Assembly (NCBI RefSeq): GCF_900141815.1
Contig: NZ_FQYR01000008.1
Coordinates: 62,001-126,000, forward strand
Length of the DNA: 64,000 nucleotides
Reading direction: 5' to 3'
From: Rubritalea squalenifaciens DSM 18772
GTDB taxonomy: Bacteria; Verrucomicrobiota; Verrucomicrobiia; Verrucomicrobiales; Akkermansiaceae
Shown piece by piece: positions 7,063 to 54,985 of the stretch. The notes under the pieces were generated by a model, which was given only the letters and a program-made list of their open reading frames with translations, made no database searches and was not told the DNA's origin. Position 1 is the first letter of the stretch, and each line of letters begins with the position of its first letter. A program made the translations under genes and the position numbers.

Positions 7063-8970
7063 ATGCATCTCATTCTCGGAACAGCCGGACACATCGACCA
7101 CGGAAAATCCTCCCTCGTTAAAGTTCTAACAGGAACGGACCCAGACCGACTCCCCGAGGAGAAAGCACGCGGTGTCACTATCGAGCTGGGCTTCGCCCAC
7201 CTGACTCTGGGAAAGTATGAAATCGGCCTGATCGACGTGCCAGGCCACGCAGATTTCGTTAACAACATGGTCTCCGGTGTTGGCTCGCTGGACATCGCCC
7301 TTTTCATCGTCGCTGCCGACGACGGTTGGATGCCCCAGTCCGAGGAACACCTGCACATCCTCAATTACCTCGGCGTCAAGAACGTCATCATCGCCCTCAC
7401 CAAGGCAGACCTTGCCGAGGACCTGGACTTCACCGTTGAGCTGGTACGCGAGGAGCTGTTAGGGACTACTCTGGAAGAGGCTCCCATCGTTCCCGTATCT
7501 TCCATCACAGGTATGGGGATCGATGCGCTCAAGGAGGAAATCCTCAAGCTCGCAGTCGGCATCAATCACAACTCCAGCTCGCTCAATCCACGTCTCTCCG
7601 TGGACCGTGCCTTCTCCCCCACCGGCGTGGGCACTGTAGTCACAGGCACCCTAACAGGTAGTGATTTCCATAAAGGCGACCAGCTGGTCTGTCTGCCACA
7701 GGGACTGGACTGCACCGTGCGAAATGCCCAGAACCACAACCAATCTCTCGACACCGTCAGCAGCGGCACCCGCACCGCGCTAAACCTTCCCGATCTCCCG
7801 CTCTCCAGCAAGGGCAAGCCAGGAGTGAAGCGCGGCAGCGTCATCACGACTCCCGGCTATCTCCAGCCCCCCCTTACGCTGGATGTGCAGCTGCAGCGGG
7901 ACAAGCGCCCGATCACAGGTCAAACGGCCACCAAGCGCGTGCTGAAAAACACCGAGACCGTGATCCTGCATCACGGCACCTCCCGCACCCGCGCCCGCAT
8001 CGTCCTTCACTCCCAGCCCTCACTGCATCCTGGTGAGGCCTGCTTTGCCCAGCTGCGACTGGAAGAGCCTATCGCCGCCTGCACCGGAGACCGCTTCGTA
8101 CTCCGCGACGGCGCCCAGCAAGGAACGCTCGCCGGAGGCATCATCCTGGATGCCAATGCCAAGCCGCGCCTCTTCCGCTCCGAGGATCGTGCCGCCTTCC
8201 TCACAGAGAGATCCGAAGACCCAACCAACCTCCGTACGGTCATCCTTTCCGAGCTTCGCAAGACACCCTTCCTCTCCACCACCAAGAGTATTCCGAATAC
8301 CCCATTCACCACAGAGACCTTCAGCAAGACCTGTGAGCAAGTGGTGAAACAGAAGAAAGCCACCCAGCGTGGTAACTGGCTGTTAGACTCTGACTGGTGG
8401 CAGCAGGTCACCACTCAAGCTGGACAACTCGTCACCGACTACCATCAGCAGAACCCGGATGCACCCTCCATGCCCATTGAGGCCTGGCGCAAAGCCCTCG
8501 CCAAATCCAGCAAGGCTCCGGCTGACTTGTTAGAACAAATCCAGAAACATCTCCTGGCAAACGGCTATAGCTCCAAAGGTGATGGCATTGCTTCTCAAGA
8601 GCACTCTCTAGAACTACCGGAAAAGCTCCAGCCCATCGCGGACAAAATGCTCAGCACACTCAAGGGATCAGGCCTCACGCCGCCGCCCGTTGTCGAACTG
8701 GCACCGGACAAGGACAGCAAGCAGGTGCTCACCTTCCTCATCCGCTCCGGCCAAGTCATCGAGCTTGACCCGAAGGCCGTGCTCGAAGCCTCGGTGTATG
8801 AGGAATTCAAGAAGAGTATCCTCTCGCACATCCAGTCCACTGGCAAAGCCACCGCCAGTGAGATCCGCCAAGCCACCGGCGCCACCCGTAAAACCCTCAT
8901 GCCCACCCTGGAGCGTCTCGATGCTGAGGGTCTGACTCTGCGGGACGGGGATTACCGGAGTCTTAGCTAA
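7063..8970 (+). CDS. selB: Selenocysteine-specific elongation factor SelB
   Basis: GTPase that carries Sec-tRNA to UGA codons marked by a SECIS element. 635 residues, normal for SelB. The N-terminus GTAGHIDHGKSSLVKVLTG holds the G1 loop, DPDRLPEEKARGVTIELGFA the SelB-typical switch region, DVPGH is G3 and TKADL is G4. Domains 2 and 3 follow. The C-terminal third consists of winged helices (for example ATASEIRQATGATRKTLM) that bind the SECIS hairpin. Its presence implies that the organism makes selenoproteins and also needs selA, selD and tRNA-Sec, none of which is in this window. Probably co-transcribed with infA, 23 bases upstream. Confidence 0.95.
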   Translation: MHLILGTAGHIDHGKSSLVKVLTGTDPDRLPEEKARGVTIELGFAHLTLGKYEIGLIDVPGHADFVNNMVSGVGSLDIALFIVAADDGWMPQSEEHLHILNYLGVKNVIIALTKADLAEDLDFTVELVREELLGTTLEEAPIVPVSSITGMGIDALKEEILKLAVGINHNSSSLNPRLSVDRAFSPTGVGTVVTGTLTGSDFHKGDQLVCLPQGLDCTVRNAQNHNQSLDTVSSGTRTALNLPDLPLSSKGKPGVKRGSVITTPGYLQPPLTLDVQLQRDKRPITGQTATKRVLKNTETVILHHGTSRTRARIVLHSQPSLHPGEACFAQLRLEEPIAACTGDRFVLRDGAQQGTLAGGIILDANAKPRLFRSEDRAAFLTERSEDPTNLRTVILSELRKTPFLSTTKSIPNTPFTTETFSKTCEQVVKQKKATQRGNWLLDSDWWQQVTTQAGQLVTDYHQQNPDAPSMPIEAWRKALAKSSKAPADLLEQIQKHLLANGYSSKGDGIASQEHSLELPEKLQPIADKMLSTLKGSGLTPPPVVELAPDKDSKQVLTFLIRSGQVIELDPKAVLEASVYEEFKKSILSHIQSTGKATASEIRQATGATRKTLMPTLERLDAEGLTLRDGDYRSLS

Positions 8971-21193: not shown

Positions 21194-22699
21194 TTACCTC
21201 ACTGTGAGTGCGACGACGCCGAGGATCAACAGGATGGCGATAACCACCATGAGGTAAAGCATAGAGTTGCTACCCTTGCTAGCTGCCACGTTCTGGCGGC
21301 GCTCAGTGCGGCCCTTGATCTTGCCCTTACGAAGGAAGCCATCGTAGTTGCGCTGCAAGAGGTGTGTTTCCACCTGACGCATGACGTCAAGGATCACACC
21401 AACCATGATCAGAAGGCTGGTTCCACCGAAGAATCCGGTCACCATCTGGTTCAACTCAGGTCCATTGAACAACAAGGGCATCTGAGAAACGATCCATGGA
21501 AGGATGAAAATGATGGTCAGGAAGATGGCGCCAGCAAAAGTCAGACGGGTCATCGTGAAGTCCAGGAACTTCGCTGTTGGCTGACCTGGGCGAATACCAG
21601 GAATGTAGCCACCGCTGCGCTTGAGGTTCTCCGCGATCTCTGAAGGCTGGAACATGGTTGCCACCCAGAAGTAGGAGAAGAAGAAGATCATGGCACCCGC
21701 AATCACATAGTACCATGGGCTGTTCATCGCGAGAACGTTACTCATAGTGGCTGCCCAGCGCTGACCAGAGAAAACCTGGTTAGCAAGCATCACAGGGATA
21801 CCGAGAATCGCAGTCGCGAAGATGATTGGCATCACGTTTGCGTAGTTGAGCTTGAGTGGCAGGTACTGAGTCTGGCCACCGTATTGCTTACGGCCCACAA
21901 CACGCTTGGCGTACTGGATGGCGATCCGGCGCTGAGCCTGCGTGATCGCGATAGTAGCGGCTACGATGAAGATAAGGAAAGCGAAGAGGAATACAACGAA
22001 GGCGGCACCTGCAGGTCCACCCTTCTCACCTGTGATGAGAGTCTTCCACATCAGGCTGAGTGCAGCTGGAAGTGATGAAATGATGTTTACGGTAATGATC
22101 ATGGAAGTACCGTTACCGATACCACGGTCAGTCATCTGGTCACCGATCCACATCAGGAACAGAGTACCAGTCACGATGCAAAGCGTGAACATGGCAATGA
22201 ACATGAAGCCTGCGTTTGGAACGAGCTCCCCATATGCCTCGATCCCGGTAAAGAATGGAAGGGATCCTGGGTTGTTTGAAATCTGGTTTGCTAGGAATGC
22301 CCCCTGCACCAAAGCAATGAGAATGGTAATGAAGCGAGTGTACTGGTTGATCTTCTGACGACCACCATCCTCACGGGAGAGCTTGGAAAGCTTAGGCATC
22401 ACCGCAGTCATGAGCTGCATCAGAATGGATGCAGAAATGTAGGGCATGATGCCCAAGGCAAAGATACCAAGCTGCTGCAAACCACCACCGGAGAAAATTG
22501 TAGCCATTGTATCCAGGATACCACCGTCCTGTCCGCCCTTCTCAATGACACCTTCGGTGTAGGCTTCTACAACAGCACCGTCGATACCGGGCAATGTGAT
22601 GTGTACACCAAGTCGAACGACGACGATCATCACCAGCATGAAGATGATGCGTTCCCTGAGCTCGGTTACCTTCCATGTATTCGCGAATGCGGAAATCAT
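21194..22699 (-). CDS. secY: Preprotein translocase subunit SecY
   Basis: Central channel subunit of the Sec translocase in the inner membrane. 501 residues, slightly longer than E. coli SecY (443). About ten hydrophobic segments are visible. The first transmembrane region (RIIFMLVMIVVVRLGVHITLPGID) and plug-type loop are present, as are the conserved GNGTSMIITVNI and SEIAENLKRSGGYIPGIRPG motifs. The periplasmic loop after TM1 is enlarged (EGVIEKGGQDGG). Located at its canonical place after rplO. Confidence 0.97.
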   Translation of the reverse strand: MISAFANTWKVTELRERIIFMLVMIVVVRLGVHITLPGIDGAVVEAYTEGVIEKGGQDGGILDTMATIFSGGGLQQLGIFALGIMPYISASILMQLMTAVMPKLSKLSREDGGRQKINQYTRFITILIALVQGAFLANQISNNPGSLPFFTGIEAYGELVPNAGFMFIAMFTLCIVTGTLFLMWIGDQMTDRGIGNGTSMIITVNIISSLPAALSLMWKTLITGEKGGPAGAAFVVFLFAFLIFIVAATIAITQAQRRIAIQYAKRVVGRKQYGGQTQYLPLKLNYANVMPIIFATAILGIPVMLANQVFSGQRWAATMSNVLAMNSPWYYVIAGAMIFFFSYFWVATMFQPSEIAENLKRSGGYIPGIRPGQPTAKFLDFTMTRLTFAGAIFLTIIFILPWIVSQMPLLFNGPELNQMVTGFFGGTSLLIMVGVILDVMRQVETHLLQRNYDGFLRKGKIKGRTERRQNVAASKGSNSMLYLMVVIAILLILGVVALTVR

Positions 22700-25954: not shown

Positions 25955-26085
25955 AATTGCGGGTCAGCTTATAGTTGATAATGCTCAGCTTAAGCGCTAC
26001 TCTCCAACGTATTTGGGCGTCCCAAACACGAAGGCGGGCGGGGGCTTTAACTCACTTCCCCCTAAACAGCAAGCGGAAAGAGCCC

Positions 26086-26114
26086 ATTTCACCAAAAAAT
26101 CATCTTTTTGTCAG
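26086..26114 (-). promoter_or_regulatory. Candidate sigma-70 promoter for rplE-rpsH-rplF-...-map
   Basis: On the minus strand CTGACA (26109-26114) and TGAAAT (26086-26091) are separated by exactly 17 bases. Downstream the leader can fold GGGCTC-TTT against AAAGCCCC, a possible regulatory stem. A promoter is required here because a terminator and an opposing gene lie between rplX and rplE. Confidence 0.45.
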
Positions 26115-26180
26115 ATTTCACTCCCCCATCTGAACCTGTTCGGCTAACTGAGGCGCAAGCACACTCACACTAGCGCACAA

Positions 26181-26645
26181 GTGAACAAGTCAAGCATCAC
26201 AGAAACCTCCGACTCCTGCCCCCTACTCCACCAGCGACTTCAGAGCTACGAAGCCGAGTTTTCACCACTGACAGGCAAACAACCAGGCCCCGATGGAAAA
26301 TACATGCTGGATGTGGATCTCACCCTCACCGAGAACCACCTCTACCTACTCGAAGACACCCCAATCGGCTTCTGCATCAAAGGAGAAACAGACGGGCACC
26401 ATGATATCCTGGAGTTCTACATCCAGCCTGAACTGCGCAGTAATGGCCGTGGCGAACAACTCGCCCACGAAATTTTCTCAAGGCACAAGGGTCCATGGCA
26501 AGTACGCCAGATAGAAGGAGCCCACAAAGCAAGAAATTTCTGGCGACGCGCCATCCACAACTACACCGGAGGCCTCTACTCAGAGGAACAACTCCACGAC
26601 CCCTACTGGGGCCCAGTGACCCGCCAGAGATTCACCTCACTTTGA
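26181..26645 (+). CDS. GNAT-family N-acetyltransferase inside the spc operon
   Basis: Probable acyl-CoA-dependent acetyltransferase. 154 residues from a GTG at 26181. The core pattern is LYLLEDTPIGFCIKG (beta strands), HDILEFYIQPELRSNGRGEQLAHEIF (the R/Q-x-x-G-x-G/A acetyl-CoA motif) and the ARNFWRRAIHNYTG segment typical of the C-terminal GNAT motif. The substrate is unknown; small molecules or ribosomal protein N-termini are both conceivable. It is encoded opposite to the ribosomal protein genes on both sides, between rplX and rplE, a position that is uninterrupted in most bacteria. Codon use looks similar to nearby plus-strand genes. Confidence 0.85.
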   Translation: MNKSSITETSDSCPLLHQRLQSYEAEFSPLTGKQPGPDGKYMLDVDLTLTENHLYLLEDTPIGFCIKGETDGHHDILEFYIQPELRSNGRGEQLAHEIFSRHKGPWQVRQIEGAHKARNFWRRAIHNYTGGLYSEEQLHDPYWGPVTRQRFTSL

Positions 26646-26661
26646 GCCCGACCTTGAAACG

Positions 26662-26689
26662 AAAAAAGCGGCCTCCATTGGAAGCCGCT
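26662..26689 (-). terminator. Intrinsic terminator after rplX
   Basis: On the minus strand AGCGGC / GCCGCT with an inner TCC / GGA stem (26667-26689) is followed by five Us (26662-26666). It closes the rpsL-to-rplX transcript 29 bases after the rplX stop. The palindrome also lies just past the end of the GNAT gene but lacks a U-tract in that direction. Confidence 0.78.
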
Positions 26690-26717
26690 CTTGGGAATAT
26701 CTGATATTCGGATGGGA

Positions 26718-26939
26718 TTAGTCCACCTTCTTAACGTTGGAGATGTGGATTGGACCATCCATCTCAACAATGCCACCCTCTTGGTTCTGTTCAGAACGAC
26801 GGACAGCTTTTTTGATCTTACGGACACCTTCCACAATAACTTGCTGCTTAGCAACGTTTACGGAAGTAACTGTACCAGTTTTGCCTTTGTGGCCGCCGGA
26901 GATCACTTTGACGGTGTCACCCTTTTTAACGTGTGCCAT
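26718..26939 (-). CDS. rplX: 50S ribosomal protein L24
   Basis: Early assembly protein of the large subunit, KOW domain. 73 residues, shorter than the 100-residue norm and ending right after the ISNVKKVD segment. The KOW motif [19 protein letters not shown] is clear. Last gene of the first half of the ribosomal protein locus, followed by a terminator. Confidence 0.96.
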
Positions 26940-26964
26940 GATATTATCTGCTTTCAGTTTAGGG

Positions 26965-27330
26965 TTAGAGCACCTCTGGAGCGAGGGAAACGATTTTCAT
27001 GAACTTCTTATCACGGAGTTCACGAGCAACCGGTCCGAAGATACGAGTGCCTTTAGGGTTATTGTCCTTGTCGATGATGACGATAGCGTTGTTATCGAAA
27101 CGAAGCACTGAACCATCTTCACGACGGATCGGAGCTGCTGTACGTACAACAACCGCCTTCACAACAGAACCTTTCTTGATGGTTGCAGTCGGGATTGCTT
27201 CACGAACGTGAGCAGTGATGATATCACCCACGTTTGCGACCTTGGAACGAGTTCCAAGAACACCGATCATCTTTGCGGTACGAGCACCGGTGTTATCGGC
27301 GATCGAAACCTTGGATTCCATTTGAATCAT
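26965..27330 (-). CDS. rplN: 50S ribosomal protein L14
   Basis: rRNA-binding protein at the subunit interface and the target of RsfS, which is also encoded in this window. 121 residues from ATG 27328-27330 ([17 protein letters not shown]); the longer frame would add 21 residues of non-L14 sequence. Conserved: [29 protein letters not shown]. Confidence 0.98.
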
Positions 27331-27369
27331 AAAAGTTCTTCTAGTTAGTAGTTTGCAATTCTTAGAAAG

Positions 27370-27393
27370 ATGCGGCACCCGGAAGTGCCGCAT
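27370..27393 (-). other. Stem-loop between rpsQ and rplN
   Basis: Perfect 9-bp stem ATGCGGCAC / GTGCCGCAT (27370-27378 with 27385-27393), 6-base loop, followed on the minus strand by CTTTCTAAG. Starts 7 bases after the rpsQ stop. Probably an mRNA stability or attenuation element. Confidence 0.55.
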
Positions 27394-27399
27394 AACAAA

Positions 27400-27666
27400 T
27401 TAGTGAGAAAGCACCTCTGCGAGAACCCAGCACTTCTTCTTGGAGATTGGCTTGGTCTCAGTGATGCGCACCTTGTCACCTACAGCGGCCTGACCCTCTT
27501 CATCGTGAGCGTAGAATTTCTTCGTACGCTTAACGATCTTCTTGAAGCGAGGGTGAGGTACACGGGCTACGTATTCCACCACGATGGTCTTATCCATCTT
27601 AGTAGAAACAACAACGCCGACGCGGGACTTACGCAAACCTGGCTTATTAGTAGTTGATTCGCTCAT
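27400..27666 (-). CDS. rpsQ: 30S ribosomal protein S17
   Basis: Early-binding small-subunit protein with an OB fold. 88 residues. Signatures: [17 protein letters not shown], and [20 protein letters not shown]. Between rpmC and rplN as usual. Confidence 0.98.
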
Positions 27667-27687
27667 GATTTTCGATTCCTTGTGTTA

Positions 27688-27894
27688 TTATTGTTCGGCC
27701 TTGTTACGAAGCTCGGTGAGAACGGTGTTCACACGGGCTACTTCACGACGTACTTCTTTGATACGGGCGGTATTCTCGAGCTGGCCAGTAGCCTGCTGGA
27801 GACGGAGATTAAGGCTTTCCTGCTTGAGGTCACGAAGACGGTTGGTCAGTTCCTCAACAGAAAGCTCGCGGATTTCGCTAATTTTAGTTGCCAT
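27688..27894 (-). CDS. rpmC: 50S ribosomal protein L29
   Basis: Small helical protein near the exit tunnel. 68 residues. Pattern: [20 protein letters not shown]...[27 protein letters not shown]. Normal order rplP-rpmC-rpsQ. Confidence 0.97.
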
Positions 27895-27932
27895 GGTATT
27901 TGGTCAATGTTTCGCGGTTCTAGATGCGAGGA

Positions 27933-28352
27933 TTAGCTGAGCTTGTTACGCTCGATGAAACGAGTGCGGAAGCCGAGCTTGTTTGATGCGAGGCGAAGTG
28001 CCTCTTTAGCAGCTGCCTCAGGAACACCAGCAACCTCAAAGATTACTGTACCTGGCTTGATCACTGCTACCCAACGGTCTACAGCGCCCTTACCTTTACC
28101 CATACGAGTTTCTGGTGGACGGCTGGTGACTGATCTGTGAGGGAAGATTCGGATCCATACTTTACCCTTACGCTTGAGGTAACGGTTGATGGAAATACGG
28201 CATGCTTCAATCTGACGGTTGGACATCCAAGCGCGTCCGAGGGACTGAAGACCATAGTCACCGAAGCTCACGTCAGTACCGCGCTGGGCGTTACCGCCAC
28301 GGTTACCACGTTGGAACTTACGGAACTTGGTGCGTTTTGGCATTAAAGGCAT
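27933..28352 (-). CDS. rplP: 50S ribosomal protein L16
   Basis: Organises the A-site region of the large subunit. 139 residues. Signatures: [17 protein letters not shown] near the start, [39 protein letters not shown]. An AGGAGG sequence precedes the start. The frame allows [10 protein letters not shown] or MPKRTKF as beginning. Confidence 0.98.
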
Positions 28353-28402
28353 AGTTTTGTCCTCCTAAATTCTATAGTTAATGTTCTTAGTTTCGGTAAG
28401 AC

Positions 28403-29104
28403 TTAGCCTTGGCGACGCTCGCGAGCTGGACGACGTCCGCCACGATTACCGCGACCTTGGCCACCACCGGCGTTTACCTTCTCTTCCTTCTTGTTGATCC
28501 ATACCTTCACACCGATGATACCATAAACGGTGGAAGCCTCTGCAAAGCCGTAGTCGATAGGTACACGAAGTGTCTGAAGAGGCACTTTACCTTCACGGTA
28601 CCACTCTGCACGAGCAATGTCAGCACCACCAAGACGTCCTGCACAGCGGATACGGATACCGTCGGCACCGAAGTCCATGGCAGTCTGGATGGAGCGTTTC
28701 ATCGCACGGCGGAAAGCAATACGGCGCTCGAGCTGAACGGCGATGTTTTCTGCCACGAGCTGAGCGTCGAGCTCAGGCTTGCGGATTTCAATGATGTCGA
28801 TCTTCACTTGGCAACCACCACAGATCTTGGAGATGTCTGTGGTCATTTTCTCGATCTCAGAACCCTTACGGCCGATAACAAGACCAGGGCGTGAGGTGTG
28901 AAGAGTAACACGAACACTGTTCCATGCGCGCTCGATGGTCACGCGGGAGAGTGCTGCGAACTGAAGACGGCCCTTGATGTACTTACGTACCTTGAGGTCT
29001 TCATGAAGCTTGTTGGCGTAGTCTGAGCCGGTGGCATACCACTTGGAGCGCCAGTCCTTGCTGACTGCGAGGCGGAATGCGATCGGATTTACTTTCTGTC
29101 CCAT
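28403..29104 (-). CDS. rpsC: 30S ribosomal protein S3 with RG-rich tail
   Basis: mRNA entry-channel protein with KH domain. 233 residues. Conserved [29 protein letters not shown] (KH GxxG-type loop) and the C-terminal [20 protein letters not shown]. The last 25 residues are Gly/Arg-rich ([17 protein letters not shown]), echoing the RGG-rich extension of S5, its neighbour at the mRNA entry site. Confidence 0.98.
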
Positions 29105-29131
29105 AATATTGGTTCTTTAAGTAGTTTGTGG

Positions 29132-29473
29132 TTATGCCTCGGCCTTAGGGGCGAGTGTGATGAAGATATGACTCGTGCGCTTGCGGATAGCACCTGCGGA
29201 TCCGCGTGCACGTGGCTTGAATCGGCGGAAGGTAGGACCTTCACCGATGACGGCTTCCTTGACGTAGAGGTCGTCTGCATCAAGTTCGAAGTTGTTTTCT
29301 GCGTTAGCAATAGCGCTCTTCAGGGTCTTGCCGATAAGGAAAGCAGCTTTCTTCGGAGTGAAGGTAAGTGCGTCAATGGCAGCAGACACAGGAAGACCTT
29401 GGATTTCACGAGCCACATCACGTGCCTTCTTGGCAGAGATGCGAGCAAATTTGTATGTTGATTTAACTTCCAT
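29132..29473 (-). CDS. rplV: 50S ribosomal protein L22
   Basis: Lines the peptide exit tunnel. 113 residues. Signatures: YKFARISAKKARDVAREIQG, and the C-terminal FRRFKPRARGSAGAIRKRTSHI. Separated from rpsS by the inserted coiled-coil gene, whereas in most bacteria rpsS and rplV are adjacent. Confidence 0.98.
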   Translation of the reverse strand: MEVKSTYKFARISAKKARDVAREIQGLPVSAAIDALTFTPKKAAFLIGKTLKSAIANAENNFELDADDLYVKEAVIGEGPTFRRFKPRARGSAGAIRKRTSHIFITLAPKAEA

Positions 29474-29505
29474 CGTTGTAGTTCCGTTGGATGATTTGTT
29501 CCTGA

Positions 29506-30228
29506 TTATTTAATCTTGATTGTTGCGATGTCACCGAGGCGAACCGCGTTTTTGGTGTCTTCGACTTTGATTACCAGGGCTCCAGATATATCTGGTCTGA
29601 CCCCGGCGATCATTGCTTCTGCGATTTGGCTGTTACCGCGCATGATGCGGAATGTCATCCCCATGCGCACTTGCTGCTTTGCCCCCGCGTTCAGCACCAA
29701 CAGGCCGGATTGACCGTCAATACTAATGACTTTGGCTTCCTGTAAGTTACCTAAGTCTACTTGGGGACGCGGCTTGTGCCCTAAACCGAGCTCGACGTCA
29801 AGTCCTCTGATTGCAGATTCGACTTTTAGTCTTGCTTCGGGATCGGCAGCAAAGGCGGTTTTGAGGTACTCCTGCATCGAAGCTTTGAGTTCCAGAGACG
29901 CTTTTTCAAGCGACGCTAGTTTGTCCTCGAGCACCTTGCGGTTAGCCACTGCTTGCTTGAGTCGTTCATCGTCAGTCCCTAGCGGGTAGGTTCCGAGCGC
30001 CTCAAGTTCCAAGCGGATTTTCTCTAGCTCTCCGTTCGCGTCCTGCGCCTGCTTGTTGGCATTAGCAAGGGCTGCGGAGAGGTTCTGATTCTGTGAACGC
30101 AGGCTTCGAACTTCTTGTTCTAGCCTGCGGATGCGGGCATCGCGTTCGTCTGAATCTTGCGCCTGCCCCACCCCGGCTGCCAGGACCAGAAGCCCGAACA
30201 GTACCAGAAGTTGTGAAAACAGACGCAT
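29506..30228 (-). CDS. Exported coiled-coil protein between rpsS and rplV
   Basis: Unknown function. 240 residues. A signal peptide (LLVLFGLLVLAAGVGQAQ) predicts export. Residues about 26-130 are rich in Glu, Gln, Leu and Lys with heptad-like spacing (RIRRLEQEVRSLRSQNQNL, LEDKLASLEKASLELKAS), a coiled coil. The last 80 residues form a small beta-rich domain (AKVISIDGQSGLLVLNAGA, ending LGDIATIKIK). It is transcribed in line with the ribosomal protein genes, 20 bases after rpsS and 32 bases before rplV, so it is almost certainly co-transcribed. The architecture and C-terminal pattern match the protein encoded at 54296. An envelope role is likely; why it should be tied to ribosome synthesis is unclear. 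Confidence 0.85.
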   Translation of the reverse strand: MRLFSQLLVLFGLLVLAAGVGQAQDSDERDARIRRLEQEVRSLRSQNQNLSAALANANKQAQDANGELEKIRLELEALGTYPLGTDDERLKQAVANRKVLEDKLASLEKASLELKASMQEYLKTAFAADPEARLKVESAIRGLDVELGLGHKPRPQVDLGNLQEAKVISIDGQSGLLVLNAGAKQQVRMGMTFRIMRGNSQIAEAMIAGVRPDISGALVIKVEDTKNAVRLGDIATIKIK

Positions 30229-30248
30229 GAGACGAGTGAATCTAAGAA

Positions 30249-30518
30249 TTACTTCTTACCGATACCTCCGTGAGCTTTGAAGATACGCGTAGGAGCGAAT
30301 TCCCCGAGCTTGTGGCCCACCATGTTCTCAGTCACGTAGACAGCGACGAATGTCTTGCCATTGTGAACTGCGAAGTTGTGACCTACGAAGTCAGGCGTGA
30401 TCATGGAACGGCGGCTCCAGGTTTTGATCGGCTTCTTATTGTTTGCTTCAATAGCAGCATCGATCTTATCCAGAAGTTTTTGGTCCACGAATGGTCCTTT
30501 TTTAAGCGATCTAGGCAT
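30249..30518 (-). CDS. rpsS: 30S ribosomal protein S19
   Basis: Head protein of the small subunit. 89 residues. [40 protein letters not shown] and [19 protein letters not shown] are diagnostic. Follows rplB; the next gene downstream is the exported coiled-coil protein. Confidence 0.98.
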
Positions 30519-30546
30519 AGTTCTAAATAGTTATAAGTTCAGTTGA

Positions 30547-31389
30547 TTAGCGGTTCTTGGTCTTGCGACGCTGTACAATGAACTTGTCGCTAGCCTTTTT
30601 CTTCTTACGTGTCTTCTGGCCTTTGGTGTGACCCCAAGGTGACTTCAGGTGCTGACGACCACCACCGGACTTGGACTTACCCTCACCACCACCGTTCGGG
30701 TGGTCGACTGGGTTCATACACATACCACGGACGGTAGGACGAACACCCTGCCAACGTGTACGACCAGCCTTGCCGGAAACCTCGTTCATGTGATCGCGGT
30801 TACCTACCTGGCCGATGGTGCAGAGGCAGTTTTCGTTGAACTTACGGATCTCGCCGGATGGCATCTTCACCAATGCATAACCAGTTTCACGGTTGGAAAC
30901 GATGGCCTGCTGACCTGCGGAACGTGCTACCTTACCACCTGCACCCGGAACGAGCTCGATGTTGTGGACAGCTGTACCAAGTGGTACGTTCTTCAGTGGT
31001 GTAGCATTACCAGGCTTAGGAGCTACTTTCTCACCTGCGACAACAGTGTTGCCAACTGTGAGACCAACAGGAGCAAGGATGTAGCTCTTCTGACCGTCAG
31101 CGTACTCGATGAGTGCAATGCGGCATGTACGGTTTGGATCGTACTCGATAGCTACAACTGTTGCTTCTACGTCAAACTTACGACGCTTGAAGTCGATGAG
31201 ACGGTACTTGCGCTTGTGACCACCACCGATGTGACGGCAAGTGATGCGACCGCGGTTGTTACGTCCACCAGTCTTTTTAAGCGGAGCAGTAAGGGACTTC
31301 TCTGGAGTCGACTTAGTGATCTCCTCGAATGTGTTCCAGACCTTGTAGCGGTTGGCTGGAGTTACTGGTTTGAATGTTTTTAAAGGCAT
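30547..31389 (-). CDS. rplB: 50S ribosomal protein L2
   Basis: Core protein needed for subunit joining and peptidyl transfer. 280 residues. Signatures: [40 protein letters not shown], and the conserved C-terminal [18 protein letters not shown] with the essential His region. Confidence 0.98.
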
Positions 31390-31450
31390 TTCGCTATTCC
31401 TTTCGAATGTTAGTATTTCGTTTTTGCAGCGGATTGACTCCGTCTAAACC

Positions 31451-31735
31451 TTAGACGAGGTCGAGAGTCTCACCGTCCTTGAGACGGACGATGGCCTTCT
31501 TCCAGTTAGCGGTGCGGCCCGCGTCACTGCGGCGTTGGCGTTTCTTTTTGCCGTTGTAGTTGCATGTGCGTACAGACTCAACCTTCTTGCCGAAGAGCTG
31601 TTCTACAGCACGCTTGATTTCGAGCTTGTTTGCCCTAGGTGCCACCTTAAGAACAAACTCGTTGTTCAACTCCTGGAGGAGAGTAGCTTTTTCACTGAGG
31701 CGAACGGTGTCGATGACTTGATAAATGTCTTTCAT
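31451..31735 (-). CDS. rplW: 50S ribosomal protein L23
   Basis: Docking site at the tunnel exit for trigger factor and SRP. 94 residues. Pattern: SEKATLLQELNNEFVLKVAP, NKLEIKRAVEQLFGKKVESV, and a short C-terminal LKDGETLDLV. The stop codon lies within a small stem-loop CGTCTAA / TTAGACG (31441-31457). Confidence 0.97.
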   Translation of the reverse strand: MKDIYQVIDTVRLSEKATLLQELNNEFVLKVAPRANKLEIKRAVEQLFGKKVESVRTCNYNGKKKRQRRSDAGRTANWKKAIVRLKDGETLDLV

Positions 31736-31755
31736 CGTTTTCTATTCGGTTTGGG

Positions 31756-32364
31756 TTATGCTGTGCGCTTAGCGAGTGTTTCGAGAGCGTCGTTCACGAT
31801 GACGATAGCGTTAGCGTGGAGGATTTGCTCCACGTTTACTTCTGCTGCAGTCATGAGAAGAACGTTCTGTACGTTACGTCCAGCGAGGTAGGTCTTCTCG
31901 TCGAAGCTACCAGCGATGACGAGCACCTTCTTGGCGTCGGTCATACCCTTGATAGCGGAAACGAAAGACTTGGTCTTGCCGTCTGCGATCTCGAAGGAGT
32001 CAACAGCGAGTACACGCTCGGAAGCGATGACTTCACCGAGAACCTTACGAAGAGCAAGCTTACGTACGCTCTTGGTGACCTTCTTGTTGTAGCTGCGTGG
32101 CTTAGGTCCGAAGACAACGCCACCACCCACGAAGATTGGTGCACCCTTGTCGCCGTGACGTGCGTTACCAGTACCCTTCTGACGGTACATTTTCTTACCA
32201 GTGCCACTTACTTCAGAACGAGTCTTGGAGTTAGCGGAACCAGTACGACGGTTTGCGCGGTAGGCAGTAATCAAGTCGTGCACTGCTTGTGCACCCTTGT
32301 CGCCTTCAACAACAGTGATGTTGGCTGCCTTGGCGTCGGAGATTGAAAGTAGTTTTCCTGACAT
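31756..32364 (-). CDS. rplD: 50S ribosomal protein L4
   Basis: Tunnel protein that in E. coli also represses the S10 operon. 202 residues. Signatures: YRANRRTGSANSKTRSEVSG, RQKGTGNARHGDKGAPIFVG, and a C-terminal half with VLLMTAAEVNVEQILHANAIV. 15 bases before rplW... in the standard C-D-W order. Confidence 0.98.
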   Translation of the reverse strand: MSGKLLSISDAKAANITVVEGDKGAQAVHDLITAYRANRRTGSANSKTRSEVSGTGKKMYRQKGTGNARHGDKGAPIFVGGGVVFGPKPRSYNKKVTKSVRKLALRKVLGEVIASERVLAVDSFEIADGKTKSFVSAIKGMTDAKKVLVIAGSFDEKTYLAGRNVQNVLLMTAAEVNVEQILHANAIVIVNDALETLAKRTA

Positions 32365-32389
32365 TTCAGTGATCCTTTCTTAATTAATA

Positions 32390-33037
32390 TTACTTGTTAG
32401 CGCCCTTAACTGCTGGACGAACGACAACGTAACCACCCTTGTGGCCCGGAACGGCACCTGATACGAGGATGACATTGTCTTCAGCGCGGACCTGAACAAC
32501 TTTGAGATTCTGAACAGTACGACGATACTGGCCGTGACGACCTGGCATCTTCTTGTTCTTCCATACACGACCTGGCCATGTACCGGCACCGATACCACCA
32601 GGACGGCGGTGCATCATGTGACCGTGTGAGTCAGGCTGACCGGAGAAGTTGTAACGCTTAACAACACCCTGGAAACCTTTACCCTTGGTTGTACCGATTA
32701 CGTCAACGGTCTGACCGTCTTCGAAAAGGGTAGCACCTGGGTGTGCTTCCTCAGTGTTAGGAAGATCTGCGTCGCTAGTGAAGCGGAACTCCTTAACAAG
32801 CTTCTTGGCGTTTGCGCCGTACTTCTTGAAATGACCTTTGGTTGGAGCGTTGAGGCGGTTTTCCTTTTGCTCGTCGTAACCGATCTGAACTGCGGAGTAA
32901 CCGTCAGATTCAGTGGTCTTGAGCTGGAGGAATTCGTTACCTGCTACGTCGATCACAGTGACAGGGATCATGATTCCTGCTTCCTGGTCGAAGACGCGAG
33001 TCATACCTACTTTTTTACCTAATAGTCCGAGTGACAT
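32390..33037 (-). CDS. rplC: 50S ribosomal protein L3
   Basis: Early-assembly protein near the peptidyl transferase centre. 215 residues. MSLGLLGKKVGMTRVFDQEA at the start, TKGKGFQGVVKRYNFSGQP, MHRRPGGIGAGTWPGRVWK and MPGRHGQYRRT are diagnostic. Confidence 0.98.
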   Translation of the reverse strand: MSLGLLGKKVGMTRVFDQEAGIMIPVTVIDVAGNEFLQLKTTESDGYSAVQIGYDEQKENRLNAPTKGHFKKYGANAKKLVKEFRFTSDADLPNTEEAHPGATLFEDGQTVDVIGTTKGKGFQGVVKRYNFSGQPDSHGHMMHRRPGGIGAGTWPGRVWKNKKMPGRHGQYRRTVQNLKVVQVRAEDNVILVSGAVPGHKGGYVVVRPAVKGANK

Positions 33038-33064
33038 ATCTTATGATTTCTACTTGGTTAGGGC

Positions 33065-33373
33065 TCAGATACGGATTGCGATGTCTACACCAGCTGGAAG
33101 ATTAAGCTTCTTGAGCTCATCTACGGTGCGGGCTGTAGGGTCTACGATATCAAGCAAGCGCTTGTGGGTCCGGATCTCGAATTGGTCGGCTGACTTCTTG
33201 TTCTGGTTAACAGAACGGTTAACGCTGAATTTTTCAACGCGAGTCGGCAGAGGAATCGGGCCGGCCACCTTAGCACCTGTACGCTTGGCGGTCTCGACGA
33301 TCTCCTGTGCGGAACGATCGATCGCACGATGATCGTAGGCGCGGAGACGGATTCTAATCTTCTGATTTTCCAT
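33065..33373 (-). CDS. rpsJ: 30S ribosomal protein S10
   Basis: Head protein; also an antitermination factor (NusE). 102 residues. [20 protein letters not shown] and [17 protein letters not shown] are diagnostic. It follows fusA by 40 bases; the tuf gene that commonly separates fusA from rpsJ is absent, so the str and S10 groups are joined. Confidence 0.98.
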
Positions 33374-33413
33374 AATGAAGATGTATTGTTTTTACCTTGT
33401 TATTGTTTGTTGA

Positions 33414-35558
33414 TTACACGCGCTCGCCGAATTTTTCATCGACGATTGCCTGTGGGACTGGTTCAAAACTGGACGGCTCCATAGTAAATGAAGCACGGCC
33501 AGAAGAGACTGTTCTGAGCGCGGTCATGTAGCCGAACATCTCGGCAAGTGGCACCTTGGCTTTCAGGGTACACACTGGACCCCTGGTTTCCATACCACCG
33601 ATGAGCGCGCGACGGCGATTGAGGTCACCCATGATATCCCCCTGATACTCATCAGGAGTGGTCACCTCGACATCCATGACAGGCTCAAGGAGAATAGCAC
33701 CAGCATTCTCAAAGGCATCTCTCATGGCGAAAATAGCAGCCATATGGAAAGCGTTTTCGTTGGAATCCACATCGTGGGAATCACCGTCGACTACTTCGAC
33801 GTGTACATCCACGACTGGATAACCAGCAACGCTACCGTTCACCATGGCGTCTTTGATTCCGCCATAGACTGCATTAATAAATTCTTTAGGGATGGCACCG
33901 CCAACCACCTTGTTCTCGATGGTAAGACCCTTACCCTGCTCGTTAGGACGAACCTCGAGCTTCACGCGGCCATACTGCCCCTTACCACCAGTCTGCTTCT
34001 TGAGAACTCCGTCTCCAGCAGCTGCTTTGGTGATCGTTTCGCGGTAGGCGATCTGTGGTTTACCCACATTGGCCTCCACTTTGAACTCGCGCTTGAGACG
34101 ATCAATAATCACCTCGAGGTGAAGTTCACCCATACCTGCGATGATCGTCTGGCCGGTGTCCTCATCTGTCTTCACAACGAAAGTTGGGTCCTCCTCCTGG
34201 AGTCGACCCAGACCAATGGACATCTTCTCCTGGTCAGCCTTTGTCTTAGGCTCAACAGCCATGGCAATCACTGGCTCAGGGAAAGTCGGCGGCTCGAGCA
34301 TGATGTCGAACTTCTTGTTACAAAGAGTGTCACCGGTAGTAACATTCTTGATCCCTACAAACGCGGCGATGTCACCAGCATAGCAGGTTTCGATCTCCTC
34401 GTGCTTGTCTGCCTGCACCTGAATGATACGGGAAACACGCTCCTGTTTACCTGTACGCGGATTGTAGACTGAATCCCCCTTGGACACGGTACCGGAATAC
34501 ACGCGGAAGAAAACCAGCTTACCAACGTACTTATCCGCCCATAACTTGAATGCCAATGAGCAGAATAGCTTGTTATCGTCTGCCTCGGCAATGACAACAG
34601 CCTCTTCATCGTTTGCCTTCTGACCCTTGGCCGGAACCACATCAAGCGGGCTTGGCAGATAGTCGATGACGGCGTCCACCAGGAACTGAACACCTTTGTT
34701 TTTGAAAGCGGAACCGCCGGATACCGGTACGAACTTATTCGCAATGGTCACACGACGGATAGCGGACTTGAGATCCCCAGGAGTAATCTCTTCCTCCATG
34801 AGATATTTCTCACCGAGTTCGTCGTCCAAATCTGCCACAGTATCAATCAGCTCTTCACGAGCCTCCATGGCAATGAGCTTCTGATCTTCACTAAGCTCTT
34901 CAATTGTAAAGGTGGAACCGAACTTGTCATCATCCGAATAGATGACAGCCTGCTGGTTGACCACATCGATCTGACCACGAAGCTGATCTTCGGCTCCGAT
35001 CGGAATAAGAACAGCTGCAGCCGTAGCATGCAGCTTCTCGCGCACCTCATTAAGGACATTGTTAAAGTCTGCGCCAACACGATCCATCTTATTGACGAAT
35101 ACAATGCGCGGGACATTGTACTTGGTCGCTTGGCGCCAGACAGTTTCTGTCTGTGGCTGGACTCCAGCCACACCACAGAATACCACAATTGTTCCATCGA
35201 GAACGCGCAGGGAGCGCTCAACCTCAGCCGTGAAATCCACGTGACCAGGAGTATCAATGATATTCACTCGCTGCTTCTCGCTTTCGAAAAGCTTAAAGAT
35301 CCCATCATTGGGCTTCTGAACCCACTCACAAGTCACGGCAGCCGAGGTAATGGTAATACCACGTTCGCGCTCTTGCTCCATATGGTCGGTAGTAGTCGCA
35401 CCATCGTGCACCTCACCGATCCTATGAATCATGCCGGTGTAGAAGAGAATTCGCTCAGTAAGCGTCGTCTTACCCGCATCAATATGAGCCGCGATCCCGA
35501 TGTTGCGCGTACGCTCCAATGGGCAAGGACGGTTCGGATTGTTTGGGTTCGATGACAT
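33414..35558 (-). CDS. fusA: Elongation factor G
   Basis: Translocation GTPase. 714 residues, the standard length. G1 AHIDAGKTTLTERILFYTG, the EQERERGITITSAA switch region, G3 DTPGHVDFTAEVERS, G4 NKMD. Domain IV contains the QTGGKGQYGRVKLEV segment and the C-terminal domain RALIGGMETRGP. Within the operon between rpsG and rpsJ. Its position in the str operon argues for the canonical EF-G rather than a paralogue. Confidence 0.98.
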   Translation of the reverse strand: MSSNPNNPNRPCPLERTRNIGIAAHIDAGKTTLTERILFYTGMIHRIGEVHDGATTTDHMEQERERGITITSAAVTCEWVQKPNDGIFKLFESEKQRVNIIDTPGHVDFTAEVERSLRVLDGTIVVFCGVAGVQPQTETVWRQATKYNVPRIVFVNKMDRVGADFNNVLNEVREKLHATAAAVLIPIGAEDQLRGQIDVVNQQAVIYSDDDKFGSTFTIEELSEDQKLIAMEAREELIDTVADLDDELGEKYLMEEEITPGDLKSAIRRVTIANKFVPVSGGSAFKNKGVQFLVDAVIDYLPSPLDVVPAKGQKANDEEAVVIAEADDNKLFCSLAFKLWADKYVGKLVFFRVYSGTVSKGDSVYNPRTGKQERVSRIIQVQADKHEEIETCYAGDIAAFVGIKNVTTGDTLCNKKFDIMLEPPTFPEPVIAMAVEPKTKADQEKMSIGLGRLQEEDPTFVVKTDEDTGQTIIAGMGELHLEVIIDRLKREFKVEANVGKPQIAYRETITKAAAGDGVLKKQTGGKGQYGRVKLEVRPNEQGKGLTIENKVVGGAIPKEFINAVYGGIKDAMVNGSVAGYPVVDVHVEVVDGDSHDVDSNENAFHMAAIFAMRDAFENAGAILLEPVMDVEVTTPDEYQGDIMGDLNRRRALIGGMETRGPVCTLKAKVPLAEMFGYMTALRTVSSGRASFTMEPSSFEPVPQAIVDEKFGERV

Positions 35559-35606
35559 TGTCTAAAGCGAGTTAGTAAGTCTCCTACAGCTTGGCGGGGC
35601 TGGTGA

Positions 35607-36080
35607 TTACCAGCGGAAGTGAGCAAACGCACGGTTGGCCTGAGCCATCTTGTGCATGTCGTCACGCTTACGGACTGCGGAACCTTGATTGTTCGCTGCG
35701 TCCTTGATCTCGTTAGCGAGAGCCTTGTGCATTGGTACACCCTTCTTGTTGCGAGCGAAGGTAACGAGCCAGCGCATAGCGAGGGACTCGGAACGTGCAG
35801 GCTCAACCTCAAGAGGCACCTGATAAGTTGCACCACCAACACGGCGAGACTTAACCTCTACGCGTGGCTTGGCGTTTTCGATCGCACGAGTGATGATCTC
35901 AAGTGGATCAACAGTGTCGGTACCGCTGTTAGCAGAATCGATGGCATCATAAACGATACGCTCTGCGAGGGAGCGCTTACCATCCTTCATCACCTTGCTG
36001 ATAAGAGTACCAACAAGCTGGCTGTCGTAACGTGAATCGCGACGATCTTTCTTTGCGTGAATTTTTCTACGGCGTGCCAT
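35607..36080 (-). CDS. rpsG: 30S ribosomal protein S7
   Basis: Nucleates assembly of the 30S head; in E. coli represses the str operon. 157 residues. Signatures: DSRYDSQLVGTLISKVMKDG, ENAKPRVEVKSRRVGGATYQ, RWLVTFARNKKG. A short stem GCTGGT / ACCAGC (35599-35614) covers its stop codon. Confidence 0.98.
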   Translation of the reverse strand: MARRRKIHAKKDRRDSRYDSQLVGTLISKVMKDGKRSLAERIVYDAIDSANSGTDTVDPLEIITRAIENAKPRVEVKSRRVGGATYQVPLEVEPARSESLAMRWLVTFARNKKGVPMHKALANEIKDAANNQGSAVRKRDDMHKMAQANRAFAHFRW

Positions 36081-36127
36081 AATAAAATTTCAGTAAATCT
36101 TTAAAAATAAAAAACCTAAGGATCTAA

Positions 36128-36502
36128 TTATGCCTTAGGACGCTTAGCACCGTACTTGGAACGGGCTTGCTTACGGTTGCTGACTCCGAGTGTATCGAGA
36201 GCACCACGAACGATGTGGTAACGAACACCTGGCAAATCCTTCACTCGGCCACCACGGACCAGAACGATGGAGTGCTCCTGAAGGTTGTGACCTTCACCAC
36301 CAATGTAAGCCATGACTTCACGGCCATTGGTAAGACGAACCTTGGCTACTTTACGAAGAGCGGAGTTTGGCTTCTTCGGCGTACGGGTCATGACCTGAAG
36401 GCAGACACCGCGGCGCTGTGGACAGTTTTGGAGAGCCCTGGACTTGGACTTCTCTTTGATTACTTTACGCCCTTTGCGAACGAGTTGGTTAATTGTCGGC
36501 AT
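36128..36502 (-). CDS. rpsL: 30S ribosomal protein S12
   Basis: Decoding-centre protein and streptomycin target. 124 residues from ATG 36500-36502 ([13 protein letters not shown]); the longer open frame upstream is leader sequence. [20 protein letters not shown] and the [13 protein letters not shown] segment are conserved; the Lys of TPKKPNS that determines streptomycin sensitivity is present. First gene of the long ribosomal operon, with a leader of at least 150 bases. Confidence 0.98.
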
Positions 36503-36644
36503 GGATTTCCTGCTTTTTAGTTTAGTTACAGGGCGCGACGGAAGGGCGACGAGATTCTCTCGTAGAGCCATTTTTCCGGTGCTGCACCCGATAATTCTTA
36601 GTTTTTCTCGATTGAGTGCATATCTGATTTCATTCAGACACGCG

Positions 36645-36670
36645 TTGTGGGGCGGCGAATCTACCCACAA
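36645..36670. promoter_or_regulatory. Inverted repeat over the str operon promoter
   Basis: TTGTGGG (36645-36651) and CCCACAA (36664-36670) form a perfect 7-bp inverted repeat around 12 bases that include the candidate -10 box. It may be an operator for a dimeric regulator, or a 5' mRNA stem if transcription starts upstream. Confidence 0.35.
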
Positions 36671-36685
36671 AAAGTCATCTGGCAA
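36658..36685 (-). promoter_or_regulatory. Candidate promoter of the str/S10 operon
   Basis: On the minus strand TTGCCA (36680-36685), 16-base spacer, TAGATT (36658-36663), followed by the GC-rich discriminator CGCCGCCCC. It lies about 156 bases upstream of rpsL and downstream of the tRNA-Met terminator, where an operon promoter is needed. Confidence 0.42.
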
Positions 36686-36770
36686 GCCCTATTTTGAGAT
36701 AATTCCGATTTCAGCCAAGCACCCCGCCAAGAACACAAACCCCTCTCCTATAACCAGTTTCAATCTAAAT

Positions 36771-36799
36771 AAAAAAACACCAGCGGATTAGGCTGGTGT
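36771..36799 (-). terminator. Intrinsic terminator of the tRNA-Met transcript
   Basis: On the minus strand an 8-bp stem ACACCAGC / GCTGGTGT (36777-36784 with 36792-36799), 7-base loop, then six to seven Us (36771-36777). It separates the tRNA gene from the rpsL operon. Confidence 0.82.
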
Positions 36800-36844
36800 A
36801 GTTATTCACATTTTTTAACCAATAAAGGTAAAATATGGAGAAAT

Positions 36845-36919
36845 TGGTAGCACGAGCGGGATTTGAACCCGCGACCAAGGGCTTATGAGTCCCCTACTCT
36901 ACCACTGAGCTATCGTGCC
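36845..36919 (-). tRNA. tRNA-Met (anticodon CAT), elongator type
   Basis: A complete cloverleaf of 75 bases with the 3' CCA encoded. Acceptor GGCACGA / TCGTGCT (with a G1-U72 wobble), discriminator A, D stem GCTC / GAGT, anticodon loop CTCATAA, T arm GCGGG TTCAAAT CCCGC. The anticodon stem has an A31-G39 mismatch. The three G-C pairs typical of initiator tRNA are absent. A CAT tRNA could alternatively be the lysidine-modified tRNA-Ile2; the GGC...GCT-ACCA acceptor resembles the B. subtilis elongator Met tRNA, so Met is preferred. Confidence 0.88.
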
Positions 36920-36958
36920 ACAATTTCCACTGCCTCAGCTTGCGCTGCGGCGCGGGCG

Positions 36959-36986
36959 ATTTAACGCAGACCCCATGAACTGTCTA
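36959..36986 (-). promoter_or_regulatory. Candidate tRNA-Met promoter
   Basis: On the minus strand TAGACA (36981-36986), 16-base spacer, TTAAAT (36959-36964), followed by the discriminator CGCCCGCGCCG. About 40 bases upstream of the tRNA 5' end. Confidence 0.45.
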
Positions 36987-36998
36987 CAAAAAATTAAC

Positions 36999-37919
36999 CT
37001 AAAATGCGATTTTTTCCTTCTCCATGGCTGCATCGAGCCAAACCAAAAGCTTCTTCCTGTACTCCTCCTGATTGATAATCAAGGTGGAAGTATGCCCTGC
37101 CCCCTCTACTTTGAAGAGAGTCTTGGGCTGATGAGCAGATTGAAAAAGTTTCTCCGCCTGACTCAGAGGGATCGTCCGATCGAGGGTACCGTGCACCACC
37201 AGAAGCGGTACTTTAGGTAATTTAGCGATTAGTTTTCCAGGCTCGTAACTACCGGAAACAATATTTTTTCCCGTATCTCCGGCGATGATCTCCGCCATCT
37301 CAACGTAGGAGTTAAAAGTAGAATCCACGATCACAGCCCTGAGCCCCTCTGGAGCATTTGCCGCCAAGGCCGCTATCGACTTCGCCCCACCGAGACTGTG
37401 CCCGAAGGAAACCAGCTTGTCCTGATCAATATCGACCCTCGTCACAATATACCTGAATGCCGCCTGCGCATCTTCCACCAAACCTTTGCGAGATACCTTA
37501 CCACCAGAACTCCCATAGCCTCGGTAATCGTACATAAATACATTATACCCCTCCCGCACCATCCAGTAAGTGAAGTAGAAGTGATGCCCTAGGGCTCCAG
37601 CATTCCCGTGAGAGAAGACAATCGTGCCTTTTGCTTTTTGTGCCCCATACTTACTAGGCAGGAACCAGCCATGAAGCTTCGTGCCATCCTCACTCTTGAA
37701 ATACACATCCTCATACTTGTATCCATATTTCCCTGGGGTATGGGGCTGCTTTTTGGTGGGATAATAAAAAAGTCGATCACCTCCGGATTCTCCCATGAGC
37801 AATCTCGCCACCTTGGCCTTGAAACTAGGACCCTCCTCCGCATAGCCCACGGAAAAGAAGACAAATGTAGCGAGAATAACATGGGCTAGTAATTTCATAG
37901 ACACCTTCATCATAGCCAC
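36999..37919 (-). CDS. Exported alpha/beta hydrolase (BEM46/ABHD13-like)
   Basis: Probable serine esterase or lipase-like hydrolase. 306 residues. The N-terminus (MKLLAHVILATFVFFSVGYAEE) is a signal peptide; ATG choices at residues 1, 4 or 8 all keep it. The nucleophile is in SFGHSLGGAKS, the oxyanion region in VFSHGNAGALG, the acid in VVHGTLDRTIP and the His in VEGAGHTST. The segment YDYRGYGSSGGKVSRKG is typical of the family. The substrate is unknown. Single gene directly upstream of the tRNA-Met promoter. Confidence 0.9.
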   Translation of the reverse strand: MAMMKVSMKLLAHVILATFVFFSVGYAEEGPSFKAKVARLLMGESGGDRLFYYPTKKQPHTPGKYGYKYEDVYFKSEDGTKLHGWFLPSKYGAQKAKGTIVFSHGNAGALGHHFYFTYWMVREGYNVFMYDYRGYGSSGGKVSRKGLVEDAQAAFRYIVTRVDIDQDKLVSFGHSLGGAKSIAALAANAPEGLRAVIVDSTFNSYVEMAEIIAGDTGKNIVSGSYEPGKLIAKLPKVPLLVVHGTLDRTIPLSQAEKLFQSAHQPKTLFKVEGAGHTSTLIINQEEYRKKLLVWLDAAMEKEKIAF

Positions 37920-54185: not shown

Positions 54186-54295
54186 CCTAGGGAATCAGTC
54201 CCACTGCTCAAGCCTGTTTAGAAAAGAACATAGAGACCCTGATTTTCCGCACTTTTGCCTTTCGTCTGCCCGTGAAATCACTACACCTTCTAGTC

Positions 54296-54985
54296 ATGAA
54301 CACGATGAAAATTCTCATTGGAGCTACCTTCGCTCTCTTGCTTGCTGGTCTCATTACCTCCTACCAGACCATGAAAAATAATGAGAAGTCTGATCCCCGC
54401 GCCGCGGAGATCGAGAAACTCGAAAAGCGCTTAGCTGAACTCGAAGCCGCTAAAAACTCCAACGCGCCACTGGGCAGCAACAACTTTTCTAACAACCAGT
54501 ACGGATCTGGCGGCTTCCAACCACAAGCCGTGCCTAACCCACTGGAGCAACAAGCTGCCACCCAAGCAGCCCAGCTTCAAATCGAAAAGCTCAAGCAGGA
54601 GATTGCCGAACTGAAGAACGACAACGAAGACAGTGTGAAGAAAGCTGACCTTGCCGAACGTGAAGCTCAGGCCCTACTTGAGAATGAAATGGACCGACGC
54701 CAGCCCGAAATGGCCCGAGCAAACCGCATCAAGCAAGCATTGCTCATGGCTCGTGTCGAGAAGTGGTATGAGGAAGAAAAGCTCGTAACCATCCTCATCG
54801 AAAGACCTGAGGACGTACAGTCAGGCCTCATTCTGGCAATCCGTAGAAACTCTGGAATTATCGGCCGTCTGCAAGTCGGCACCGTTGAGAATAACAAAGC
54901 CGTGGCTGACCCAATCCCTGGAAGTTTCCTAGGAGGTGTAGACATCCGCGAAGGCGACGAACTCATTGTTCCTCCCGCCTACTAA
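54296..54985 (+). CDS. Membrane-anchored coiled-coil protein with C-terminal beta domain
   Basis: Unknown function. About 229 residues from ATG 54296 (MNTMKILIGATFALLLAGLI); an ATG 24 bases upstream is possible. N-terminal membrane anchor, a short coiled coil (IEKLEKRLAELEAAK), an Asn/Gly/Gln-rich linker, and a longer coiled coil (LQIEKLKQEIAELKNDNED, KKADLAEREAQALLENE). The C-terminal 80 residues are a beta domain (LILAIRRNSGIIGRLQVGTV ... GDELIV). The same three-part plan and a similar terminal domain occur in the protein encoded at 29506. First gene of a three-gene unit, 7 bases before the lipoprotein gene. Confidence 0.78.
   Translation: MNTMKILIGATFALLLAGLITSYQTMKNNEKSDPRAAEIEKLEKRLAELEAAKNSNAPLGSNNFSNNQYGSGGFQPQAVPNPLEQQAATQAAQLQIEKLKQEIAELKNDNEDSVKKADLAEREAQALLENEMDRRQPEMARANRIKQALLMARVEKWYEEEKLVTILIERPEDVQSGLILAIRRNSGIIGRLQVGTVENNKAVADPIPGSFLGGVDIREGDELIVPPAY

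Follow-up and report, generated by a model that had tools for sequence, protein, structure and literature searches.

A signal-bearing coiled-coil and barrel protein encoded between rpsS and rplV in Verrucomicrobiota

In the 64,000-nt stretch of Rubritalea squalenifaciens DNA that we analyzed (the window), a gene under purifying selection, hereafter X, separates rpsS from rplV, at a junction that is, to our knowledge, nearly fixed in bacteria. At this junction, many genomes of the phylum, including that of Akkermansia muciniphila, encode a protein without an above-cut-off Pfam or NCBIfam match. We consider it slightly better than an even bet (about 0.55) that X is a growth-coupled factor of the periplasmic envelope, transcribed with the S10 operon, with a supporting part in the assembly or bracing of an envelope machine. 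The readings weighed below are not mutually exclusive, and the figures we attach to them overlap.

The gene and its ribosomal setting

X is a 240-codon open reading frame with an ATG start, separated by 20 nt from rpsS and by 32 nt from rplV, and its coordinates (Table 1) agree with the original prediction of a reading frame on the same strand as its neighbors with gaps of this size. With genes named by eye, the minus-strand order leads from rpsL-rpsG-fusA-rpsJ-rplC-rplD-rplW-rplB-rpsS-X into rplV-rpsC-rplP-rpmC-rpsQ-rplN and on to secY-adk-map, such that secY (21194–22699) is part of the same cluster as X. The assembly measures 4.3 Mb, and the window lies on its contig C8. An Rfam scan of 26000–37500 returned one RNA element, a tRNA gene at 36848–36919 (minus strand) that immediately precedes rpsL, where the ribosomal cluster begins.

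Table 1. Coordinates, in the window, of X, its parts and its immediate neighbors
Feature	Position	Strand	Basis or remark
X, signal-bearing coiled-coil/FlgT_C-like barrel protein, 240 aa	29506..30228	-	ORF; orthologs
X, N-terminal hydrophobic signal, residues 1-23	30160..30228	-	cleavage site guessed by eye; orthologs
X, helical coiled-coil part, residues 25-146	29791..30156	-	AlphaFold2; missing in short orthologs
X, C-terminal six-stranded barrel domain, residues 159-240	29509..29754	-	G182 invariant, R211 nearly so
rpsS (S19), neighbor upstream of X	30249..30518	-	PF00203 search
rplV (L22), neighbor downstream, kept with X	29132..29473	-	PF00237 search
X-rplV intergenic, 32 nt	29474..29505	-	without a terminator-like site
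rpsS-X intergenic, 20 nt	30229..30248	-	by eye, no clear Shine-Dalgarno sequence

No terminator-like site was found in 28900–31500, and the two promoter-like sites in that interval are close to the number expected from shuffled sequence (1.6). Given the short gaps and the absence of a terminator-like site, X is likely co-transcribed with the ribosomal operon. Its codons differ from those of its neighbors. Measured against the window's ribosomal genes as reference, the codon adaptation of X is 0.37 versus 0.55–0.78 for all 15 ribosomal genes (each left out of the reference in turn), and it exceeds that of only 3 of the 27 other window genes tested. Across 56 loci of the class (L059 was skipped, having too few genes), every tested ribosomal gene outscores X in 38, and in 45 no more than one of them fails to do so. 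In class loci, predicted Shine-Dalgarno pairing has a median of –1.45 for X, against –1.70 for rplV and –2.30 for other ribosomal genes, and so is slightly weaker for X. Since X is codon-poor beside its neighbors, its yield is probably lower than that of the ribosomal proteins, and we think it likely that X is present in the transcript but translated less than the ribosomal genes. The expectation that X is produced in step with ribosomes may therefore apply to transcription at most, but not to translation, given these poorer codons. The accompanying claim that no link between the envelope and ribosome synthesis is known was too strong, as secY resides in the same cluster. Export genes are also linked with ribosomal genes in secE-nusG-rplK and in rpmH-rnpA-yidD-yidC.

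Selection, distribution and movement of the gene

X is not a chance reading frame, because its orthologs keep their place in the family and the class and because dN/dS is 0.10–0.21 in all ten pairs of five Akkermansia X sequences (L120 was omitted from this set owing to its different length). These low values reflect purifying selection on a protein that evolves fast: within the family, X is 36–45% identical to the window X, versus 66–90% for rpsS and rplV. With the window protein alone as query, 174 of 285 class genomes gave a match at E ≤ 0.001.

All 30 family genomes that we read, including that of the window, have X between rpsS and rplV. Outside the family, 40 further loci of the class were read, and 39 have X in the same place; as these loci were picked from X hits, and as the profile used to read them was built from 30 X sequences, many of them among the 40, this is not an unbiased rate. 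The remaining locus (L063) was dropped, since its hit falls outside the ribosomal cluster. The order rpsS-X-rplV also appears in 17 of 17 named loci (A. muciniphila, Haloferula, Persicirhabdus and others), which overlap the other loci and include some identical X sequences.

For an unbiased sample, rpsS and rplV were located in each of 145 genomes of the phylum. The two genes were linked, meaning on the same strand and less than 3 kb apart, in 90 genomes and unlinked in 48, with only one of them found in 5 and neither in 2. An X domain lies 26–116 nt before the rplV match in 46 of the 90 linked genomes, and X is absent at rplV in the other 44 (32 read directly and 12 judged by their short gap), which makes X dispensable in many lineages. 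The arrangement that the original prediction proposed to look for in Verrucomicrobiota is thus widespread, and the absence from all relatives that would have spoken against it is not what we find. In two genomes of 0.9 Mb from family f15 (L144 and L145), the rpsS–rplV gaps, measured match to match, are 175 and 340 nt with no detectable X. These wide gaps are possibly remnants of X in reduced genomes. Another member of f15, L049, retains X.

Genomes in which the cluster is split show which neighbor X accompanies. Loci were read for 26 of the 48 unlinked genomes; X directly precedes rplV in 22 of these 26, with profile E-values between 5e-21 and 4e-4, whereas 4 have no X there. In four of the 22 (G288, G339, G362 and G365) both halves lie on one contig, so their separation is not an assembly effect; in these genomes X precedes rplV-rpsC, and the stretch read beyond rpsS contains no ribosomal gene of the query set. 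Since most of the split loci read keep X directly before rplV, X tracks rplV (L22) and not the rpsS–rplV junction, on the basis of about two separation events. We count only about two because a FastTree phylogeny of RplV and RpsC (126 loci, rooted at the midpoint, weakly supported at several nodes) gathers the X-bearing split genomes into one clade, except for G365, which stands apart; if the cluster broke with even odds on either side of X, the two-event pattern would arise one time in four. The split family f66 lacks X in this tree. Judged by eye, and with weak support at several nodes, the tree suggests that X is ancestral and was later lost at least a dozen times. The split of the S10 cluster between rpsS and rplV, seen in L075–L100 and L185–L188, occurs in one clade of the phylum, with several cases on a single contig.

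Some genomes carry additional X-like domains. The window's own genome has tandem paralogs on contig C4, away from X (L132:6745–7527 and 7569–8372), whose barrels match the X profile at 2e-10 and 0.13. Like X, they have an N-terminal hydrophobic segment (signal or membrane anchor), a coiled-coil look and an X-like barrel; unlike X, they have Glu at the R211 position and belong to a separate clade. In a FastTree analysis, 17 second-copy domains, namely the hits in 12 genomes (L173–L184, seven without X at rplV) and the two copies of the window's own genome, make up a single clade (support 0.94) from which all 112 X sequences are absent. The second copies of these 12 genomes therefore cluster apart from X, and we rejected the idea that they are X genes relocated in X-lacking genomes. 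R211 was likewise rejected as a mark exclusive to X, since 9 of the 17 second-copy domains also have Arg. Tandem second copies also occur in L173, L174 and L175. Elsewhere in the window, a plus-strand gene at 54272–54985 encodes a protein with an N-terminal hydrophobic segment, a coiled-coil look and a small C-terminal beta-type domain; with an hhalign probability of 18%, it was not accepted as a close paralog of X.

It is possible, if rather doubtful, that X is a real envelope protein whose place has no functional meaning: a passenger that inserted once, was tolerated, has been inherited vertically and is often lost, the ribosomal operon merely giving it steady transcription. Such an account would fit the low codon adaptation of X, its absence from 44 of the 90 linked genomes with many losses on the tree, and a split-cluster pattern that amounts to only about two events. 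It is harder to reconcile with the persistence of X at one spot across phylum-wide divergence, and no relocated X appeared among the second-copy hits of the 12 genomes, 7 of which lack X at rplV.

Protein architecture and predicted fold

The N terminus of X, MRLFSQLLVLFGLLVLAAGVGQAQ, is signal-like by eye. Among 104 orthologs, which include near-identical Akkermansia sequences, 97 have a 12-residue stretch with mean hydropathy of at least 1.6 starting within the first 60 residues, and 85 have K or R ahead of the hydrophobic stretch. A plain AxA signal-peptidase motif follows the stretch in only 56, and 9 orthologs look lipobox-like; several of the orthologs without these N-terminal features have doubtful start codons. 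We infer that X is exported. Were the signal peptide misread, X could be a cytosolic ribosome factor, as its operon position alone would allow, but we regard this as highly improbable: the hydrophobic N terminus persists in 97 of 104 orthologs despite strong divergence elsewhere, and X is far less conserved within the family than the ribosomal proteins on either side of it.

AlphaFold2, run with 18 sequences, predicts helices at residues 25–77, 86–124 and 130–146 followed by a beta domain whose six strands all fall within residues 165–237. The full model has a mean pLDDT of 77 and a pTM of 0.38, with the helices at middling confidence and the beta domain confident; modeled alone, the barrel domain reaches a pLDDT of 89.7 and a pTM of 0.78. 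The division into signal peptide, coiled coil and C-terminal beta domain that had been read from the window thus recurs here, the first as a signal-like sequence by eye and the others as predictions of the model. Short forms of X (111–130 aa; L064, L065 and L110–L113) keep signal and barrel and lack the coil; since they keep these two parts, we take signal and barrel to be the core of X. G182 is present in 112 of 112 orthologs and R211 in 106 of 112, while the extreme C terminus varies among 48 aligned orthologs.

This distribution of conserved residues bears on whether X might act as a secretion monitor, with its translation and export controlling the downstream genes from rplV to secY in the way that SecM acts ahead of secA. 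A signal-bearing reading frame does directly precede rplV in linked as well as split clusters, and in the window secY belongs to the downstream part of this cluster. However, conservation sits in the folded barrel and not at the variable extreme C terminus, inspection by eye revealed no arrest-like motif at the C terminus, and Rfam found only the tRNA in 26000–37500, all of which makes such control quite improbable.

The best structural match of the barrel is a chain of the flagellar LPHT ring (8z5n_0; Z 12.2, 2.1 Å over 77 residues), followed by FlgT (3w1e; Z 11.6, 2.3 Å over 78 residues). Since barrels of the F1-ATPase type, at Z 10.5 and below, sit within about 2 Z units of these matches, the fold names no function.

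Proposed role and relation to known systems

On our preferred reading, X would be a Sec-exported envelope protein, either periplasmic or anchored in the inner membrane, that joined the S10 cluster just upstream of rplV in an early member of the phylum; selection would have retained it there in many lineages while others lost it. Read as part of the ribosomal operon, its supply would follow growth rate, with the poorer codons holding its yield below that of the ribosomal proteins. The FlgT_C-type barrel would be the working part, and the coiled coil, which is found in most but not all lineages read, may oligomerize the barrel or span a distance. X would then probably aid in assembling or bracing an envelope machine for which demand scales with growth. 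The order of signal, coil and single FlgT_C-like barrel suggests a periplasmic protein that serves as a scaffold or in assembly, and the position of X is what would make its supply follow ribosome synthesis. A bolder proposal is that X is both sensor and anchor, coupling export to ribosome building: X would have to be exported whenever the operon is read, which would keep the S10/spc polysome membrane-bound and allow export capacity to set output from L22 to SecY; we consider this very improbable.

The location of X suggests that an envelope protein and ribosomes are produced side by side. Should the supply of X depend on ribosome output, the gene would give simple genetic access to the way in which envelope growth is adjusted to protein synthesis. 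X is not described in the listed titles and opening parts of abstracts of the open-licence PMC literature on Verrucomicrobiota ribosomal operons and on Akkermansia. A transposon screen of Verrucomicrobium spinosum has been published, and its gene table would include the essentiality of X if V. spinosum has the gene, as its family suggests (PMC12283558). An outer-membrane proteome of A. muciniphila has also been published (PMC4960237).

Among the matches listed for whole X in Pfam and NCBIfam, all are below cut-off, and most fall in the helical part. The closest solved fold to the X barrel is the C-terminal domain of FlgT (PF16538), an exported periplasmic protein. The window X scores 15.1 bits against FlgT_C (E 0.032), below the gathering cut-off of 27 bits, and 13 of 30 barrel sequences match it at E ≤ 0.1 (best 1.1e-6); the domain model, by its Z scores against 8z5n_0 and 3w1e, has the fold of the FlgT C-terminal barrel. 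Modeling thus indicates that X and FlgT_C share a predicted fold, although descent is not thereby proven. Where FlgT has other domains, X has a coiled coil.

The FlgT_C-type module occurs in periplasmic ring-associated proteins, FlgT and TsaP among them, and TsaP combines it with LysM. In a search of PDB sequences with the barrel profile, nine sequences matched at E ≤ 1, the best being an efflux protein similar to MexC (0.0009) and TsaP (0.0016, over 40 columns). TsaP also appears at rank 41 (E 0.026) in the fold list. These matches raise the possibility that X is an accessory of secretins or pili, its barrel docking on an outer-membrane secretin ring as in TsaP. A secretin was found in 141 of the 145 genomes, and the four without one (G007, G014, G023 and G032, all of family f8) also lack X at rplV. 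Yet secretins are present in the remaining 40 of the 44 linked genomes without X, leaving little co-variation, and secretins are so nearly universal that their presence or absence does not decide the matter. In addition, LysM does not figure in the top 25 of 47 Pfam families (E up to 10) for whole X, nor among the matches listed for the barrel, and X resides among ribosomal genes rather than pilus genes. We therefore regard a secretin-docking role as unlikely, and X, having a coiled coil, a different gene context and no listed LysM match, was rejected as a TsaP.

MreC resembles X in the order of its parts, with an N-terminal hydrophobic segment, a coiled coil and a beta barrel, and Foldseek with the full X model retrieved MreC 2j5u at E 4.6e-4. 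MreC has two barrel domains, however, whereas a single six-stranded domain is predicted in X. Of the 30 barrel sequences, only 3 match the MreC family (PF04085) with E ≤ 0.1, the best at 0.03, and the family is not one of the two matches of the window X. With neither the Pfam match nor the second barrel, X was not accepted as an MreC. V. spinosum carries an mreC of its own, according to the transposon study (PMC12283558).

MreC, FlgT and TsaP consist of similar parts, but X does not fully pass the tests for any of the three. This ribosomal region is already known to carry guest genes, secY among them. Like X, the genes named by eye as secY, adk, map and fusA are non-ribosomal members of the window's ribosomal cluster; they encode widespread enzymes or translocon parts, whereas X, for which our search covered the Verrucomicrobiota, encodes an uncharacterized, signal-bearing protein from inside the S10 part of the cluster.
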